A program made the position numbers and the translations under genes. The notes under the pieces were generated by a model. The model worked only from the letters and a program-made list of their open reading frames with translations. It was not told the origin of the DNA and did no database searches. From a virus, in the IMG/VR virus record IMGVR_UViG_3300047560_000743, positions 1 to 27,079 of that record: a stretch of DNA of 27,079 nt; one strand, 5' to 3'. Every line of letters begins with the position of its first letter. The first letter of the stretch is position 1. Of the stretch, positions 1,608 through 16,349 are shown piece by piece.

Positions 1608-3899
1608 ATGTTGCAACCAAATAAAGACCTAGAACAAATTTTCGAATCTGCTGTCAATCTTGCAGGAAAGAAACAGCATGAGTACGTTACTTTAGAACAT
1701 TTTCTGTATGGTCTTATTACAAACGAGTCATTTTCGAATCTTCTTTTAAGTTTCGGTGCCGATGTAACTACATTGGCTAAGAATCTAGAAAAGTTCATCG
1801 ACGAAGGATTGACCGAGATAGTTAATCCTAATTCGGATAGGCCCAAGAAAACAAATACAGTTGACAAAGTTCTAAATAGAGCATTTACTCATGTATTGTT
1901 CTCAGGAAGAACTGTAATTGAACCAGTTGACTGTTTTATCAGTATGTTTGCTGAAAAGAAAAGTCATGCCGCATTTTTTATTAGAAAAGCAAACATTGAT
2001 AAAGATAAGTTTATTAGTTTCCTAAGGAAAGAACATCAGCAAAGAGAAGAACAAGAAGATGCTGAAGAATTCAGAGGAAAAAATCCGCAAATTGAAAGAT
2101 TAATCAGTCAGTTCTGTACTAATCTAACAGCTCGTGCTAAAGCAAAGAAAATTGATCCGGTTATTGGCAGAGAACAAGAAATCGAAGAAGTACAATTGGT
2201 ACTTGCTCGTCGTAACAAAGCCAACGTCATGCTTATCGGAGATCCTGGTGTAGGTAAAACTGCTATTGCAGAAGGTCTTGCTCGTAAAATTGTAGAAGGT
2301 AATGTCCCCAAGTTTATTCAAGATCATACTGTTTATAACCTAGATATTAGTGCTATCCTTGCAGGTAGCAAATATCGTGGTGACTTTGAAGAACGCCTTA
2401 AAATGATCATCGGTGCTATTGAGAAGAAAGGCAAGTGCATCTTGTTTATCGACGAAGCACATATGATGAACGGTGCAGGTGCCGCAAACGGTAATAGCAA
2501 TGACATGGCCAATATGCTCAAACCTGCTCTAAGTAAAGGTACTCTAAAAGTTATTGCTAGCACTACTTGGGAAGAATTCCGTAAGCACTTTGAAAAGGAT
2601 CGTGCGTTGATGCGTCGATTCCAACGTGTTGTAGTCGACGAGCCAAACGAAGCAACCTGTATTAAGATTCTTAAAGGTCTTAAAAAATATTATGAAAAAC
2701 ACCACGGTGTTAAGATTACAAATCAGGCCATCACAGATGCAGTTACATATTCTGTGAAATATATGAGCGATAAGAAACTACCAGATAAGGCTATTGACCT
2801 AATTGACTGTGCGTGTGCTCGTTTCAAGGTTAAAGACGAAGAAAATGGGGTCGTAGACCATGATGAAATAATGTATGAAGTAGCAAAGATCGCTAATCTT
2901 CCTTTAGAACAAGTTAATGCTAAAGAAGGAATGAACTTAGCTAGCCTTGAAAAGAATCTACGCAATAAAGTTTTCGGTCAAGAAAGTGCAATTGAAAGTC
3001 TGCTTGATAAGATTTTTATTAGTCAAGCAGGGCTAAAAGCATTCAATAGACCTGTCGGTAGTTTCTTATTTGTTGGTCCAACCGGTGTCGGTAAGACAGA
3101 AGTTGCTAAACAACTATCGAGCAATATGGGTGTTAAACTTGTTCGCTTTGATATGAGTGAGTTTCAAGAGAAACACAGTGTTGCTAAGTTTATCGGTGCG
3201 CCTCCGGGATACGTCGGCTTTGATGATAATGCAGGTCAGTTGATTACACAATTACAAGAAAATCCAAACTGTGTTCTATTACTAGATGAAGTTGAAAAAG
3301 CACACCCTGATGTTTTAACTGTGCTTTTACAACTGATGGATAATGGATTTGTTACAGGTAGCAACGGCAAGAAAGCTGATGCCCGCAATGCTATTATTAT
3401 CATGACATCAAATCTTGGTGCTTCGGACGCTGAAAAGAATGCAGTTGGATTTGGTAGTCTAGAACGTGACAGCGATCCTAAAGATGCTGTTAATAAATTC
3501 TTTGCCCCAGAATTCCGTAATCGTTTAGATGGTATTGTTAGATTTGGCAAATTGGATCAAATTAACATGATCAAGATTGTTAAGAAATTCATTGACGAGC
3601 TAAACTCACTAGTAAAGGACAAAAACATCCATATTAAACCAACATCAGAAGCTGTTGAATTCTTGATCTCTAAGGGGTTTAATAGTAAAATGGGGGCTCG
3701 TCCTTTACAAAGAACAATTGACGAACACATTAAGAAACCGCTAAGTAAAGAAATCTTGTTTGGTAAATTAACAAACGGTGGTGTCGTTGAAGTTTCTGTT
3801 GAAAAAGATAAACTACAAATCAATATTGTTGATGTTCTTCCTATCGAAAAGACAAAATCTACTGATGAAAACCCAAATTCAAAAGCTGAGATCCAGTAA
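1608..3899 (+). CDS. clpA: ClpA-type AAA+ unfoldase
   Basis: A 763-residue HSP100 ATPase, close to bacterial ClpA in length. An N-terminal Clp repeat domain (about 1-140) precedes two AAA+ modules with Walker A motifs GDPGVGKT (211-218) and GPTGVGKT (490-497), and Walker B motifs FIDEAH and LLLDEVEKAH. The long coiled-coil middle domain of ClpB is absent, which argues for ClpA/ClpC. Val-Gly-Phe at 613-615 sits where the ClpP-binding [LIV]-G-[FL] loop is found, so it could dock on host ClpP; no clpP gene is in the window. An AAGGA site lies upstream of the ATG at 1608. It ends inside the start of the next gene. Confidence 0.92.
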   Translation: MLQPNKDLEQIFESAVNLAGKKQHEYVTLEHFLYGLITNESFSNLLLSFGADVTTLAKNLEKFIDEGLTEIVNPNSDRPKKTNTVDKVLNRAFTHVLFSGRTVIEPVDCFISMFAEKKSHAAFFIRKANIDKDKFISFLRKEHQQREEQEDAEEFRGKNPQIERLISQFCTNLTARAKAKKIDPVIGREQEIEEVQLVLARRNKANVMLIGDPGVGKTAIAEGLARKIVEGNVPKFIQDHTVYNLDISAILAGSKYRGDFEERLKMIIGAIEKKGKCILFIDEAHMMNGAGAANGNSNDMANMLKPALSKGTLKVIASTTWEEFRKHFEKDRALMRRFQRVVVDEPNEATCIKILKGLKKYYEKHHGVKITNQAITDAVTYSVKYMSDKKLPDKAIDLIDCACARFKVKDEENGVVDHDEIMYEVAKIANLPLEQVNAKEGMNLASLEKNLRNKVFGQESAIESLLDKIFISQAGLKAFNRPVGSFLFVGPTGVGKTEVAKQLSSNMGVKLVRFDMSEFQEKHSVAKFIGAPPGYVGFDDNAGQLITQLQENPNCVLLLDEVEKAHPDVLTVLLQLMDNGFVTGSNGKKADARNAIIIMTSNLGASDAEKNAVGFGSLERDSDPKDAVNKFFAPEFRNRLDGIVRFGKLDQINMIKIVKKFIDELNSLVKDKNIHIKPTSEAVEFLISKGFNSKMGARPLQRTIDEHIKKPLSKEILFGKLTNGGVVEVSVEKDKLQINIVDVLPIEKTKSTDENPNSKAEIQ

Positions 3900-11583: not shown

Positions 11584-12213
11584 ATGCTAAAACGATCCGA
11601 CGTACATATCGTTTCGAATCCTACATGCTCCGAACCACTGTTCGAAATTATACAAGACGATTTTAAATTCTACGATAAAGACGGATTTGAATTGAATAAG
11701 GCAGAACAGAAGTTTTATAATTTAATGCATCATCCAATTAATGAACCAATCCTTAATCATTCTTGTTGGCAAGAAACATGGTTCGACTTAGAGGATAAAG
11801 ATTCTGTATTAATTTTAGATCATTGCATGATCTTACATAGATGTGATTATTCGGGTCATGCAGAATATCAATTGAATAAAATTAAAAAAGATATTGCAGG
11901 TGCAAGCTGGTTACTAAACACAAAACAAAAATGGGGCTTTGACTTTGCATTAGATGCACTAGATCCGGACGGAAATACCTATGAAGTATTGCACATTGAA
12001 TACGATAATCTAGACTATGATGAATTCACAAAGCAAATGATAAACTTTGATTTCATTATACGTCACACTGATTGGTTTGATGCCGCTATTAAAATAAACC
12101 AGCATAAAGATGAATGGATCGCCTTAAAGAGTTGGGAACAGAATAACTGGAAATCAAATTTTTTAATCGGTTGGAAAAAATCCGAATATACAGAAAAAAG
12201 TTTGACATTCTAA
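11584..12213 (+). CDS. Conserved phage protein of unknown function
   Basis: A 209-residue soluble protein starting one base after the stop of the frameshift extension. It is rich in aromatic and acidic residues, with a Trp/His/Cys-containing core (NHSCWQETWFDLED; LDHCMILHRCDY; HIEYDNLDYDEF). No Walker, radical SAM or nuclease motif is apparent. The His and Cys residues in the middle could coordinate a metal but the spacing fits no motif I know. It is the last gene before a strong promoter, so it probably ends the transcription unit that began upstream. No terminator hairpin is evident in the 39 bases that follow. Confidence 0.75.
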   Translation: MLKRSDVHIVSNPTCSEPLFEIIQDDFKFYDKDGFELNKAEQKFYNLMHHPINEPILNHSCWQETWFDLEDKDSVLILDHCMILHRCDYSGHAEYQLNKIKKDIAGASWLLNTKQKWGFDFALDALDPDGNTYEVLHIEYDNLDYDEFTKQMINFDFIIRHTDWFDAAIKINQHKDEWIALKSWEQNNWKSNFLIGWKKSEYTEKSLTF

Positions 12214-12230
12214 AATCAAGTCTGTATAAT
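12202..12230 (+). promoter_or_regulatory. Perfect sigma-70 consensus promoter
   Basis: TTGACA at 12202-12207 and TATAAT at 12225-12230 with exactly 17 bases between: a full consensus match. The -35 box lies in the last codons of the upstream gene. It would start transcription near 12237, ahead of the dsbA-like gene, the membrane protein and probably gene 43. Confidence 0.85.
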
Positions 12231-12252: not shown

Positions 12253-12522
12253 ATGGGCAAATCATTTGGCGCACCCGAGCAGGCAAAAATTAAACAAATT
12301 ATTTCTGAAGGCATGACAGTTATGCAGGAAATTCAAGACCTTACAGAGGGGTTGAACGAAACTATCAAAGCTGTAGCAGAAGAACTCGAAGTAAAACCAA
12401 GCATCATTAGAAAAGCAATTAAGATTGCACAAAAAGATCAATGGGACCAAGTGTTCCGTGAATTTGACGACCTTGAAACAATCGTAGATATAAGTGGTCA
12501 CGCCACTCGTAGAGAAGACTAA
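12253..12522 (+). CDS. dsbA: DsbA-like dsDNA-binding protein (late transcription)
   Basis: An 89-residue, mostly helical protein with the same length and layout as T4 DsbA, a double-stranded DNA-binding protein acting near late promoters. The helix-turn-helix-like stretch KAVAEELEVKPSIIRKAI (around residues 38-55) is the most similar part; an N-terminal coiled-coil segment (IKQIISEGMTVMQEIQDL) precedes it. An AGGAG ribosome site lies before the ATG at 12253 and the gene follows a full-consensus promoter, so early or middle expression is likely. It overlaps the next gene by one base (TAATG). Assignment rests on motif resemblance and replication-gene context. Confidence 0.72.
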   Translation: MGKSFGAPEQAKIKQIISEGMTVMQEIQDLTEGLNETIKAVAEELEVKPSIIRKAIKIAQKDQWDQVFREFDDLETIVDISGHATRRED

Positions 12523-12818
12523 TGATCGACGCAGTATTTGGACCAACAATAAAATGGATCAAGGATGATTGGGCTTCTCACAAGTTTCGTTTTATTGTTG
12601 AGCTCGTTGCTTGGGCTATATCTATTGGCTGTAGTATCACGATGGCAGTCACAGTCCCTAATCCCCCTCTTATTATACTATATCCTATCTGGATTAGTGG
12701 CTGTGGGATGTATGCTTGGGCTGCGTGGACTCGTCGAAGCTTTGGCATGTTGGCTAATTATATCTTGTTAACAACCATAGATACTGTCGGCCTAATTAGA
12801 ATGTTAATAAATAATTAA
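12522..12818 (+). CDS. Small multi-spanning membrane protein
   Basis: A 98-residue protein with two to three hydrophobic segments: about 22-45 (Phe-Ile-Val-Glu-Leu-Val-Ala-Trp through Met-Ala-Val-Thr-Val), 48-68 (Pro-Pro-Leu-Ile-Ile through Ala-Trp-Ala-Ala-Trp) and a weaker one at the C-terminus (Ile-Leu-Leu-Thr-Thr-Ile-Asp). The N-terminus is amphipathic with several Lys and Trp. It is translationally coupled to dsbA and sits just before the DNA polymerase gene. I do not recognise it; possible roles include membrane anchoring of replication or superinfection exclusion, neither supported by a motif. Confidence 0.7.
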   Translation: MIDAVFGPTIKWIKDDWASHKFRFIVELVAWAISIGCSITMAVTVPNPPLIILYPIWISGCGMYAWAAWTRRSFGMLANYILLTTIDTVGLIRMLINN

Positions 12819-12826
12819 GAGAAAGG

Positions 12827-12880
12827 TTTGATCAGCCATAAATGATCAAGAAGATGGTTGCCGGCCATAAGCGGTAGGAG
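12827..12880 (+). promoter_or_regulatory. Tandem hairpins with identical loops: probable gp43 translational operator
   Basis: Hairpin 1: TTGATCA (12828-12834), loop GCCATAAA (12835-12842), TGATCAA (12843-12849). Hairpin 2: TGCCG (12859-12863), loop GCCATAAG (12864-12871), CGGTA (12872-12876). The Shine-Dalgarno AGGAG (12876-12880) abuts the second stem. T4 gp43 represses its own translation by binding a hairpin with an eight-base loop overlapping its ribosome site, and this has that geometry. Confidence 0.75.
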
Positions 12881-12886
12881 AAGAAT

Positions 12887-15559
12887 ATGAGTAATTTAGA
12901 CGCGATCTGGAATCGCGATAAAGACATCATCCACGTTGTCGAACGAGATCCTAAAAAAGGCAGGATCTATCAAGAGTACCCAGCAAAATATATTTTTTAC
13001 TATCCCGACCAACGGGGTAAGTATAAATCGATCTACGGGGACAGTTTAAGCAAAGTTACAACTAAGAGTTTTAAAGAATTCCAAAAAGAACAAAGAATTC
13101 ACAGCGGCCATAGCCTTTATGAAAGTGATATCAACCCAGTCTTTCGAAATCTTGAAGAAAACTACTTAGGAAAAGAAGCACCCAAACTACATGTAGCATT
13201 TTTCGATATTGAGGTGGACTTCGACCCAGAACGTGGCTATGCATCGCCAGATGATGCATTCATGCCAATTACTGCGATTGCTGTTCACCTACAATGGTTA
13301 GATACATTAGTGTGCCTTGCTGTTCCGCCAAAGACGCTTACTATGGAGCAGGCACAAGAGCAGGTTAAAGATTTTCCTAACACGCATCTGTTTGAAACAG
13401 AAGGCGAGATGTTAGAAATGTTCTTACAGCTTATCGAAGATGCAGATGTGTTAAGCGGTTGGAACAGCGAAGGCTTTGATATACCTTATACCGTAAATAG
13501 AGTTACAAAAACACTAAGTAAAGAAGATACTCGCAGATTCTGCCTGTGGGATCAATTTCCGAAAAAACGAGAATACGAAAAATATGGGAAACAGGCTGTT
13601 ACTTATGACCTGGTTGGTCGCGTTCATCTGGACAGTCTCGAGCTGTACCGCAAATACACATACGAAGAGCGCCACACATACCGATTGGATGCAATCGGCG
13701 AGATGGAGATAGGCGAGAGCAAGACCGTATACGAAGGTACTCTTGATCAACTTTACAACAACGATTTTAAAAAGTTTATTGAATATAACAGACAAGACTG
13801 TGCATTGTTAGATAAACTAGACAAGAAACTAAAGTTCTTGGATCTTGCTAACACACTGGCACACGAATGTACTGTATTGTTACAGACTACAATGGGTGCT
13901 GTTGCTGTAACTGAGCAGGCGATTGTAAACGAAGCCCACCATCGTGGGTTAATTGTCCCTAGTCGTCCTAAACGCGATGAAGATGCTAATAACCAAGCTG
14001 CCGGTGCCTATGTTGCATATCCTAAAAAGGGACTGCACGACTGGATTGGTTCCATGGACATTAACAGTCTGTATCCTAGTGCAATTCGTGCTCTTAATAT
14101 GGGACCAGAAACCATCGTAGGTCAATTAAGACAAACAGTCACAGATAACTACATCCAAGACCAAATGTCAGTCCATAAAAAATCATTTGCCGCATCTTGG
14201 GAAGGTAAATTTGGCAGCGATGAATACGAAGCTGTCATACGGCAAGACAAAGCATTTGAAATCGTTATCGATTGGGAAACCGGTGAATCTGATATTCTAA
14301 GTGCTGCCGAAGTATACAGATTAATATTTGAAAGCAATCAACCGTGGATGCTCAGTGCCAATGGTACGATCTTTACCTACGAAACAGAAGGTATTATTCC
14401 TGGATTGCTCAAGCGTTGGTATGCTGAACGTAAAGACATGCAGAAAAAGCTCAAGGCAGCAATTGATGCAGGCAACAAGATTGAAGAAGAATACTGGGAC
14501 AAACGACAACTAGTTAAAAAGATTAACTTAAACAGTTTGTATGGTGCTATTCTTAACCCAGGTTGCCGTTTCTTTGATAAACGTATTGGTCAAAGTACAA
14601 CTCTTGTAGGACGGCAAATTGCACGTCACATGGCCGGTAAAGTTAACGAGATGATTACTGGGGAGTACAATCACATAGGCAAGTCAATTATCTACGGTGA
14701 CACAGATAGTTGTTACTTTAGTGCATATACAACACTAAAAACTGATATTCAGAAAAAATTAATTCCCTGGGATCGTGATGTTGTTATTCAACTATATGAT
14801 CAGATATCCGAACAGGTTAATTCAACATTCCCCGACTTCATGCTTGAGGCATTCCACTGTCCCAAGAGCCGAGGTGAAGTCATTAAAGCAGGTCGAGAAA
14901 TTGTTGCAGTAAAAGGCCTATTCATTACTAAAAAGAGATATGCTGTTCTTTATTATGATAAGGACGGCAAAAGACAAGACGTGGATGGCAAACCAGGTAA
15001 GATCAAGGCCATGGGCTTAGACCTTAAGCGTTCAGACACTCCTGAATTTATGCAAGATTTCTTAACTGAAATATTAACCAAAGTTCTCAATGGTGCCCAG
15101 GAAGAAGAAATTCTAGATCGCATTAGCGAATTTCGTACAGAGTTTAAGGCTCGCCCGGGTTGGGAGAAAGGCAGTCCCAAACGTGCTAATAACATTACAG
15201 AATATCAGGCTAAGGAAGCTAAACAAGGTAAAGCAAACATGCCCGGACACGTTCGTGCAAGCATTAATTGGAATACCTTAAAGCGTATGAACAGTGACAA
15301 ATACTCTATGGGCATTGTTGACGGTATGAAGGTAATTGTTTGCAAACTTAAAGATAACCCGCTAGGTTATACCAGCGTTGCTTACCCAGTCGATGAATTG
15401 CGGTTACCAAAATGGTTCCAAGAACTTCCGTTTGATCACAGTGAAATGGAAGCAACTATCATTAACAACAAACTCGATAACTTAATCGGTGTGTTGGAAT
15501 GGGATCTCGAATCCACTACACAAGATAATACATTTGGCAAACTATTCAGCTTTGATTAA
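12887..15559 (+). CDS. 43: Family B replicative DNA polymerase (gp43)
   Basis: An 890-residue polymerase, close to T4 gp43 in length. The 3'-5' exonuclease has Exo I with Asp107 and Glu109 (FFDIEVDFD), Exo II (SGWNSEGFDIPY) and Exo III (YNRQDCALLD). Polymerase motif A is DINSLYPS near residue 390, motif B KINLNSLYGA near 545, and motif C YGDTDSCYF near 603-611, followed by KKRYAVLYY. All catalytic acids are present, so it should polymerise and proofread. The C-terminal Leu-Phe-Ser-Phe-Asp could be the clamp-binding tail. An AGGAG ribosome site lies six bases before the ATG, directly against the second operator hairpin. Confidence 0.97.
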   Translation: MSNLDAIWNRDKDIIHVVERDPKKGRIYQEYPAKYIFYYPDQRGKYKSIYGDSLSKVTTKSFKEFQKEQRIHSGHSLYESDINPVFRNLEENYLGKEAPKLHVAFFDIEVDFDPERGYASPDDAFMPITAIAVHLQWLDTLVCLAVPPKTLTMEQAQEQVKDFPNTHLFETEGEMLEMFLQLIEDADVLSGWNSEGFDIPYTVNRVTKTLSKEDTRRFCLWDQFPKKREYEKYGKQAVTYDLVGRVHLDSLELYRKYTYEERHTYRLDAIGEMEIGESKTVYEGTLDQLYNNDFKKFIEYNRQDCALLDKLDKKLKFLDLANTLAHECTVLLQTTMGAVAVTEQAIVNEAHHRGLIVPSRPKRDEDANNQAAGAYVAYPKKGLHDWIGSMDINSLYPSAIRALNMGPETIVGQLRQTVTDNYIQDQMSVHKKSFAASWEGKFGSDEYEAVIRQDKAFEIVIDWETGESDILSAAEVYRLIFESNQPWMLSANGTIFTYETEGIIPGLLKRWYAERKDMQKKLKAAIDAGNKIEEEYWDKRQLVKKINLNSLYGAILNPGCRFFDKRIGQSTTLVGRQIARHMAGKVNEMITGEYNHIGKSIIYGDTDSCYFSAYTTLKTDIQKKLIPWDRDVVIQLYDQISEQVNSTFPDFMLEAFHCPKSRGEVIKAGREIVAVKGLFITKKRYAVLYYDKDGKRQDVDGKPGKIKAMGLDLKRSDTPEFMQDFLTEILTKVLNGAQEEEILDRISEFRTEFKARPGWEKGSPKRANNITEYQAKEAKQGKANMPGHVRASINWNTLKRMNSDKYSMGIVDGMKVIVCKLKDNPLGYTSVAYPVDELRLPKWFQELPFDHSEMEATIINNKLDNLIGVLEWDLESTTQDNTFGKLFSFD

Positions 15560-15614: not shown

Positions 15615-16349
15615 ATGAAAGATATTCTTCAAGACATCGTGAGTCATACTCACAATCTAGGTTTTTTAAACATCGTTAAAATTACAGGCGATGATAAATC
15701 TACAAAGATCGATTCCATGGCTGATGACCGAACCGTTGTTATGTTCGGCGAGGCGGCAAATCCACAACCAGAAATGATTGGCGTATTCGGTATGCCACAA
15801 CTTAACAAATTAAAATACAACTTAGAATGTCCAGAATATAAAGACGATGCTAAGATTGAATTGCAGACCGCAGACCGCAACGGAGAAACAATTCCAATTG
15901 GTCTCCACTTTGAAAATAAAGACGGTGATTTTAAAACAGATTACCGTTTTATGAATTCAGAGATCATCAACGAAAAACTTAAGACTACAAAGTTCCGCGG
16001 CGTTAAGTGGGATGTTGAAGTTGTTCCTACACTTAGTTCTGTTCAGCGTTTTAGCTTCCAGGTTGCAGCCAACAGTGAACACACAACTTTCTTAGCAAAG
16101 ACAGAAGGCGACAAGCTAAAATTTACCTTCGGCGATGGTGCAAGTCATGGTGGTGAATTTATTTTCGCAACAAATGTTACAGGAACACTAAACAAAGGTT
16201 GGACATGGCCTGTTGCACCCGTATTAGCAATCTTAAAGATCGCAGATGTTAACAATGCTAAGATGAGTTTATCAAACGAAGGTGCATTACAAATCACACT
16301 CGACAGTGGAATTGCAACTTACAAATATATCATTCCAGCACAAACATGA
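15615..16349 (+). CDS. 45: Sliding clamp (gp45)
   Basis: A 244-residue protein, slightly longer than T4 gp45 (228). The overall pattern is that of T4-type clamps: an acidic beta-rich fold without enzymatic motifs, with recognisable stretches such as GVFGMPQLNKLKYNL and HGGEFIFATNVTGTL followed by the WTWPVAPVLAIL connecting region. The trimeric ring tethers gp43 to DNA and in T4 also activates late transcription from TATAAATA promoters, one of which is at 4547. It has its own promoter and a good AAAGGA ribosome site, and overlaps the next gene by four bases (ATGA). No loader genes (44/62) are in the window. Confidence 0.9.
   Translation: MKDILQDIVSHTHNLGFLNIVKITGDDKSTKIDSMADDRTVVMFGEAANPQPEMIGVFGMPQLNKLKYNLECPEYKDDAKIELQTADRNGETIPIGLHFENKDGDFKTDYRFMNSEIINEKLKTTKFRGVKWDVEVVPTLSSVQRFSFQVAANSEHTTFLAKTEGDKLKFTFGDGASHGGEFIFATNVTGTLNKGWTWPVAPVLAILKIADVNNAKMSLSNEGALQITLDSGIATYKYIIPAQT

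Follow-up and report, generated by a model that had tools for sequence, protein, structure and literature searches.

The window analysed here, that is, the whole stretch of 27,079 bases of an IMG/VR record, carries on its plus strand a gene 43-type family-B DNA polymerase of 890 aa (12887–15559), which was matched by PF00136 (128.8 bits), PF03104 (65 bits) and phrog_262 (659.7 bits). The upstream ORF has its stop at 12818, and two tandem units together with the Shine–Dalgarno sequence (SD) fill nearly all of the 68-nt intergenic leader (12819–12886). The distal unit (unit 1) occupies 12825–12849 and the proximal unit (unit 2) 12856–12876, both on the plus strand, and the SD, AGGAG at 12876–12880, lies 6 nt ahead of the polymerase ATG at 12887. 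Further upstream on the same strand, a perfect 12/12 sigma-70 consensus, TTGACA-17-TATAAT, was located by consensus match only at 12202–12230, ahead of the ORFs 12253–12522 and 12522–12818 and of gene 43. It is probably the start of an early operon mRNA, and gene 43 would be read from a longer early mRNA. With such an mRNA start, the units would act after the start of transcription. As for intrinsic terminators, neither hairpin is followed by a T-run, and the only terminator-like site was at 12601–12617. Elsewhere in the window, DnaJ and ClpA/ClpB-like AAA+ ATPase genes stand side by side (753–1583 and 1608–3899). The ORF after gene 43 (15615–16349) matched phrog_12062, which has no assigned function; it is a candidate clamp gene, since a similarly placed gene of Sinorhizobium phage Phosso is annotated as a sliding clamp.

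The distal hairpin, TTGATCA-GCCATAAA-TGATCAA (12828–12849), has a stem of 7 bp, or 8 bp if T12827-G12850 is added. The 5' strand of this stem (P2), (T)TGATCA, ends at 12834, the loop GCCATAAA spans 12835–12842, and the 3' strand, TGATCA(A), follows at 12843–12849. In the proximal hairpin, GCCG-GCCATAAG-CGGT (12860–12875), the strands GCCG (12860–12863) and CGGT (12872–12875) form 4 bp around the loop GCCATAAG (12864–12871); the stem reaches 6 bp with the optional T12859-A12876 and T12858-G12877. The original prediction had described two tandem hairpins with 8-nt loops, the second stem abutting the AGGAG of gene 43. Both loops are indeed 8 nt, the SD abuts or overlaps the 3' strand of the proximal P2, and the minimum-free-energy fold of the leader consists of exactly these two hairpins, which are also kept in relatives. 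Folded separately, they gave −6.3 and −6.4 kcal/mol, and folding energy alone is weak evidence because the z of the whole leader was only −1.45. The heptamer GCCATAA on its own showed no enrichment in the window (5 seen vs 3.6 expected), and the full descriptor, comprising P2, the loop and the pairing P1 described below, occurred three times against 0.72 expected. Two full descriptors in tandem within 45 nt were obtained in none of 300 dinucleotide shuffles. In addition, the covariance model R1, in which the window's own unit is included, matched 12825–12848 with 36.2 bits (E 7e-8). At the level of sequence, comparison with relatives settled the matter and confirmed that the tandem units are real.

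In IMG/VR, the 80 polymerase loci closest to that of the window (82–91% identity) kept both units without exception. The loci fetched yielded 250 distinct leaders in all, which were binned by polymerase protein identity. Two units were present in 119 of 119 leaders at ≥80% identity and in 60 of 64 at 70–80%, the other four having one detected unit; in this bin, L242 and L281 seem to carry units whose loops are altered. At 60–70% identity, two leaders had two units, 20 had one and 34 had none, and below 60% no unit was found in 10 of 11. Unit number was strongly clustered on the polymerase tree, with 7 changes compared with 42.5 in shuffles. The nearest cultured polymerase was only ~52% identical, and the scan of bacterial genomes returned only a 66% fragment without a leader, from a Rhodospirillales MAG. 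The two copies seen in the window are present in nearly all members of the group.

The stems of the relatives vary widely and still pair, for example as GATCA/TGATC, GCGA/TCGC, GTCG/CGAC, GCAA/TTGC and ATTG/CAAT, among others. Since P2 pairing was a selection criterion for the rows counted here, the change counts, not the percentage paired, carry the weight. On the polymerase tree, the four inner P2 pairs of the distal unit changed 6, 20, 16 and 16 times and those of the proximal unit 25–30 times each, and these changes fell on both sides of the stem with pairing preserved. Every cell was paired in A1 (71 distinct distal-type units), where covariation was 0.545 vs 0.252 in shuffled and ≤0.111 in slid alignments; for A2 (38 units) the values were 0.368 vs 0.113. 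The loops behaved differently from these free stems. Positions 1–3 and 6–7 were nearly fixed in relatives, and positions 2, 6 and 7 (C, A, A) showed zero changes on the tree; the C and AA are part of the descriptor, and a full reading of the 80 nearest leaders showed the same constancy. An A was fixed at position 4 in distal loops but not in proximal ones, positions 5 and 8 were free, and some proximal units among the 80 nearest leaders had 9-nt loops. Only about 8 nucleotides per unit were near-invariant. The check put forward with the original prediction, covarying stems with constant loops in related gene 43 leaders, was therefore passed very strongly. As to its proposal that the loop is recognised, only positions 2, 6 and 7, joined in the distal unit by position 4, behave like sequence determinants. 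These data also bear on a structural leader without feedback, which would hold translation constantly low, protect the mRNA or serve as an RNase processing site. Structure near an SD generally lowers initiation, in keeping with such a role; plain occlusion, however, would not need an invariant C and AA, and recognition is suggested by a constant loop core that has persisted, amid free stems, as a pair of copies despite deep divergence. We consider a leader of this kind very improbable.

Ahead of nearly every unit, a GGY triplet complementary to the loop GCC was found 5–9 nt upstream of the loop, and at 7 nt in most distal units despite the varying length of P2. In the window, GGT at 12825–12827 and 12856–12858, which the original prediction had overlooked ahead of each stem, faces GCC at 12835–12837 and 12864–12866, respectively, and these strands make up P1, a pairing of 3 bp that is mostly invariant. 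When units were chosen by P2 and loop alone, GGY preceded 200 of 200 distinct GCC loops and AGT all eight GCT loops, and one ACC loop came with GGT. As a further test, IMG/VR was scanned for units combining a GATCA stem and a GCT loop. AGT was present in 17/17 distinct polymerase leaders (5 previously known, 12 new), at 7 nt in 16 of them and at 8 nt in L423, and in 0/6 matches lying elsewhere than before a polymerase. Taking every distinct unit together, the first base of P1 and the third of the loop formed G-C in 368, A-U in 21 and another combination in 1. On the 154-row polymerase tree, there were 10 G-C/A-U switches, each of them changing both partners together (10/10 independent pairs, p 0.002); a leader recombining separately from the polymerase gene could inflate this count of independent changes, but not the AGT/GCT rule. 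As P1 is short and mostly invariant, its support consists of this one switching pair and of U-G/C-G/U-A at another pair. A P1 of 4 bp (T12855-A12867) was feasible in the window, but the relatives do not keep the additional pair.

Each hairpin is thus probably an H-type pseudoknot, as judged from covariation. The geometry of the unit would fit such a fold, with P1 stacked on P2, an L1 of about 1–4 nt (T12859 in the proximal unit) and an A-rich L3 of 5 nt (ATAAA, 12838–12842, in the distal unit). The plain hairpins of the original prediction have accordingly given way to pseudoknots as the more likely form, with loop bases 1–3 pairing with the upstream GGY. Tandem plain hairpins with a recognised 8-nt loop would find a precedent in T4 gp43, which uses a plain hairpin (PMC3014915), and the hairpins alone are predicted to be stable. 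Nevertheless, GGY is conserved alongside the loop GCC and covaries with it, and recognition of plain hairpins is most improbable.

The relation of the element to gene 43 was tested in 18 long contigs of relatives (35–331 kb), in which every R1 match at E <0.02 adjoins gene 43. No confident site elsewhere in these contigs was given by the models R1 and R2 and the pattern GGYN{5,8}GCCAYAAN, and the pattern alone was about as frequent as its reversed control. In a scan for the GCGA stem, 66 of 78 among the matches listed directly preceded a gene 43 homologue (64–89% identity), and all 66 had GGY. Among the other 12 matches listed, 11 were without GGY, and L230 was a tandem leader cut by the contig end; further copies exist beyond the matches listed. 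In L337 and L385, an ORF is inserted between the unit with its SD and gene 43, which follows directly after it; this ORF (~3210–3900 in L337 and ~3022–3700 of the reverse complement in L385) resembles a sulfotransferase by eye. The tie to gene 43 in the original prediction is supported by these confident matches. It also makes the polymerase the simplest candidate repressor, as the unit was found at gene 43 only in the long contigs tested. The same architecture might instead be recognised by a different phage protein, whether SSB/gp32-like, RegA-like or an unknown repressor, and some observations agree with this. The leader of T4 gene 32 contains an H-type pseudoknot to which gp32 itself binds (PMC535899, PMC3014915), the shape of the unit is closer to the gp32 site than to the T4 gp43 site, and the ORF 12253–12522, two upstream of gene 43, matches the transcription-regulator family phrog_639. 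RegA sites, however, are unstructured and A+U-rich (PMC3014915), and the unit precedes no other gene in the long contigs tested. Recognition by such a protein is rather unlikely in our estimate.

Autoregulation of the polymerase by way of its leader has been studied in T4-related phages. The gp43 proteins of T4 and RB69 repress their own mRNA through a hairpin and an adjacent sequence overlapping the ribosome binding site, although some T4-related gp43 proteins do not autoregulate (PMC3014915). The leader described here belongs to the same gene family, that of gene 43-type family-B polymerases, likewise adjoins the ribosome binding site, and has 8-nt-loop hairpins upstream of the SD. The AA of the loop core is also shared with T4 and RB69 (-UAAC-) and with RB49 (-UAAA-) (PMC3014915). 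The T4 loop AATAACTC, between AGCCT and GGGCT, differs from the loop GCCNNAAN here; the conserved form of the latter is GCCAYAAN / GCCNNAAN, in which only the AA of that core is fixed. UAAA is in fact present in the distal loop of the window, GCCATAAA, but its T is free in relatives. Moreover, the T4/RB69 operator has one copy, no upstream GGY and, according to a 2010 review, no evidence of a pseudoknot (PMC3014915), whereas two units, each with P1 covariation, were found here. The descriptor found nothing in the T4 or RB69 gene 43 leaders, and the element was absent from the gene 43 leaders examined in Phosso, Atu_ph07, PA5oct, CBB, SCTP-2, Vibrio 2.275.O, ACP17, ValKK3, Cr30, S-PM2, MED4-213 and pf16. 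A descriptor match in S-CAM9 had a 7-nt loop without GCC and was probably due to chance.

The gene 32 leader of T4, T2 and RB69 has in common with the units an H-type pseudoknot, which there is the nucleation site of an autogenous repressor in the leader of a replication gene (PMC535899, PMC3014915); here the H-type form is indicated by the covariation of P1 and P2. In the gene 32 system, only one pseudoknot is present, as far as 67 nt upstream, and UUAAA repeats come after it. In contrast, two pseudoknots precede gene 43 here, the proximal one at the SD, and no UUAAA/UAAA repeats of the gene 32 type over the ribosome binding site were found in 12819–12886. The same 2010 review described the pseudoknot of gene 32 as perhaps the sole viral one in translational autoregulation (PMC3014915). 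A twin-pseudoknot switch on gene 43 was not found described in the open-licence papers searched, and a doubled pseudoknot operator on this gene appears to have evolved in a large clade of uncultured T4-like phages. By analogy, the simplest reading is that the twin-pseudoknot leader would work like the T4 gp43 operator, but it lacks two structural features of that operator, the single hairpin without a pseudoknot and the UAAC/UAAA loop core.

Translational riboswitches of the preQ1-I and SAM-II types are small H-type pseudoknots by the SD, with an A-rich loop crossing the stem. The units resemble them in being compact H-type pseudoknots with an invariant core, an A-rich L3, a position next to the SD and a tandem duplication, and a small molecule such as a nucleotide might gate polymerase translation without a protein. 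However, the roughly 8 near-invariant nucleotides per unit are few for a ligand pocket, the element is restricted to one phage gene per genome, and Rfam gave no match at the gathering score nor at E up to 10. A riboswitch-like sensor of this sort is quite improbable, and there is only a slim chance that the tandem pseudoknots constitute an undescribed RNA family acting as a protein-independent small-molecule switch on the replicative polymerase gene of phages.

We regard it as likely that the leader is a translational operator, with the polymerase stabilising the SD-abutting pseudoknot and repressing its own synthesis. The proposed cis-acting operator would consist of two tandem H-type pseudoknots, in each of which a hairpin of 4–7 bp (P2) has the GCC at the start of its loop paired with the 5' GGY (P1, 3 bp); an L1 of about 1–4 nt would cross P2 and the A-rich L3 (NNAAN) would run along P1, so that the geometry is fixed and the stem sequence free. 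Gene 43 polymerase that is free, off the replication forks, would bind one or both pseudoknots, recognising their shape and the C and AA that are invariant in the loop. We infer that the bound polymerase would lock the proximal pseudoknot and block the 30S subunit, thereby repressing its own translation, and that the distal copy might provide extra affinity or a second site; the cooperative or graded repression suggested in the original prediction would be a conjectural effect of the two copies. A stabilised proximal pseudoknot would have to compete with the 30S subunit because the proximal unit abuts the SD, which lies within P2 in a clade at 64–67% identity, where the CGG of the P2 3' strand extends into the SD (CGGAG; L131, L143 and L144).

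The large group of uncultured T4-like phages ranges naturally from two units through one to none, and with this series it can be asked how a replicative polymerase gains, alters and loses specific RNA recognition. With constant loops and free stems, the recognition code is readable from sequence, and the AGT/GCT swaps are ready-made compensatory mutants. In a clade of 17 representatives (L100–L157), no leader and no clear SD were found and the polymerase ATG directly adjoins the preceding ORF, an arrangement suggestive of translational coupling and of a lost operator; the control would be dispensable there, since the leader is absent. In the 64–67% clade (L131–L167, L179, L214–L218), the proximal unit is of the GGY...GCC type, and a different conserved hairpin occupies the distal position, about 40–70 nt before gene 43. 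This hairpin is roughly TCG-stem-C(NNN)A-stem-CATG, for example GAGTCGCTCACGTTACGAGCATG, and could represent either a derived form of the unit or a second site for recognition.
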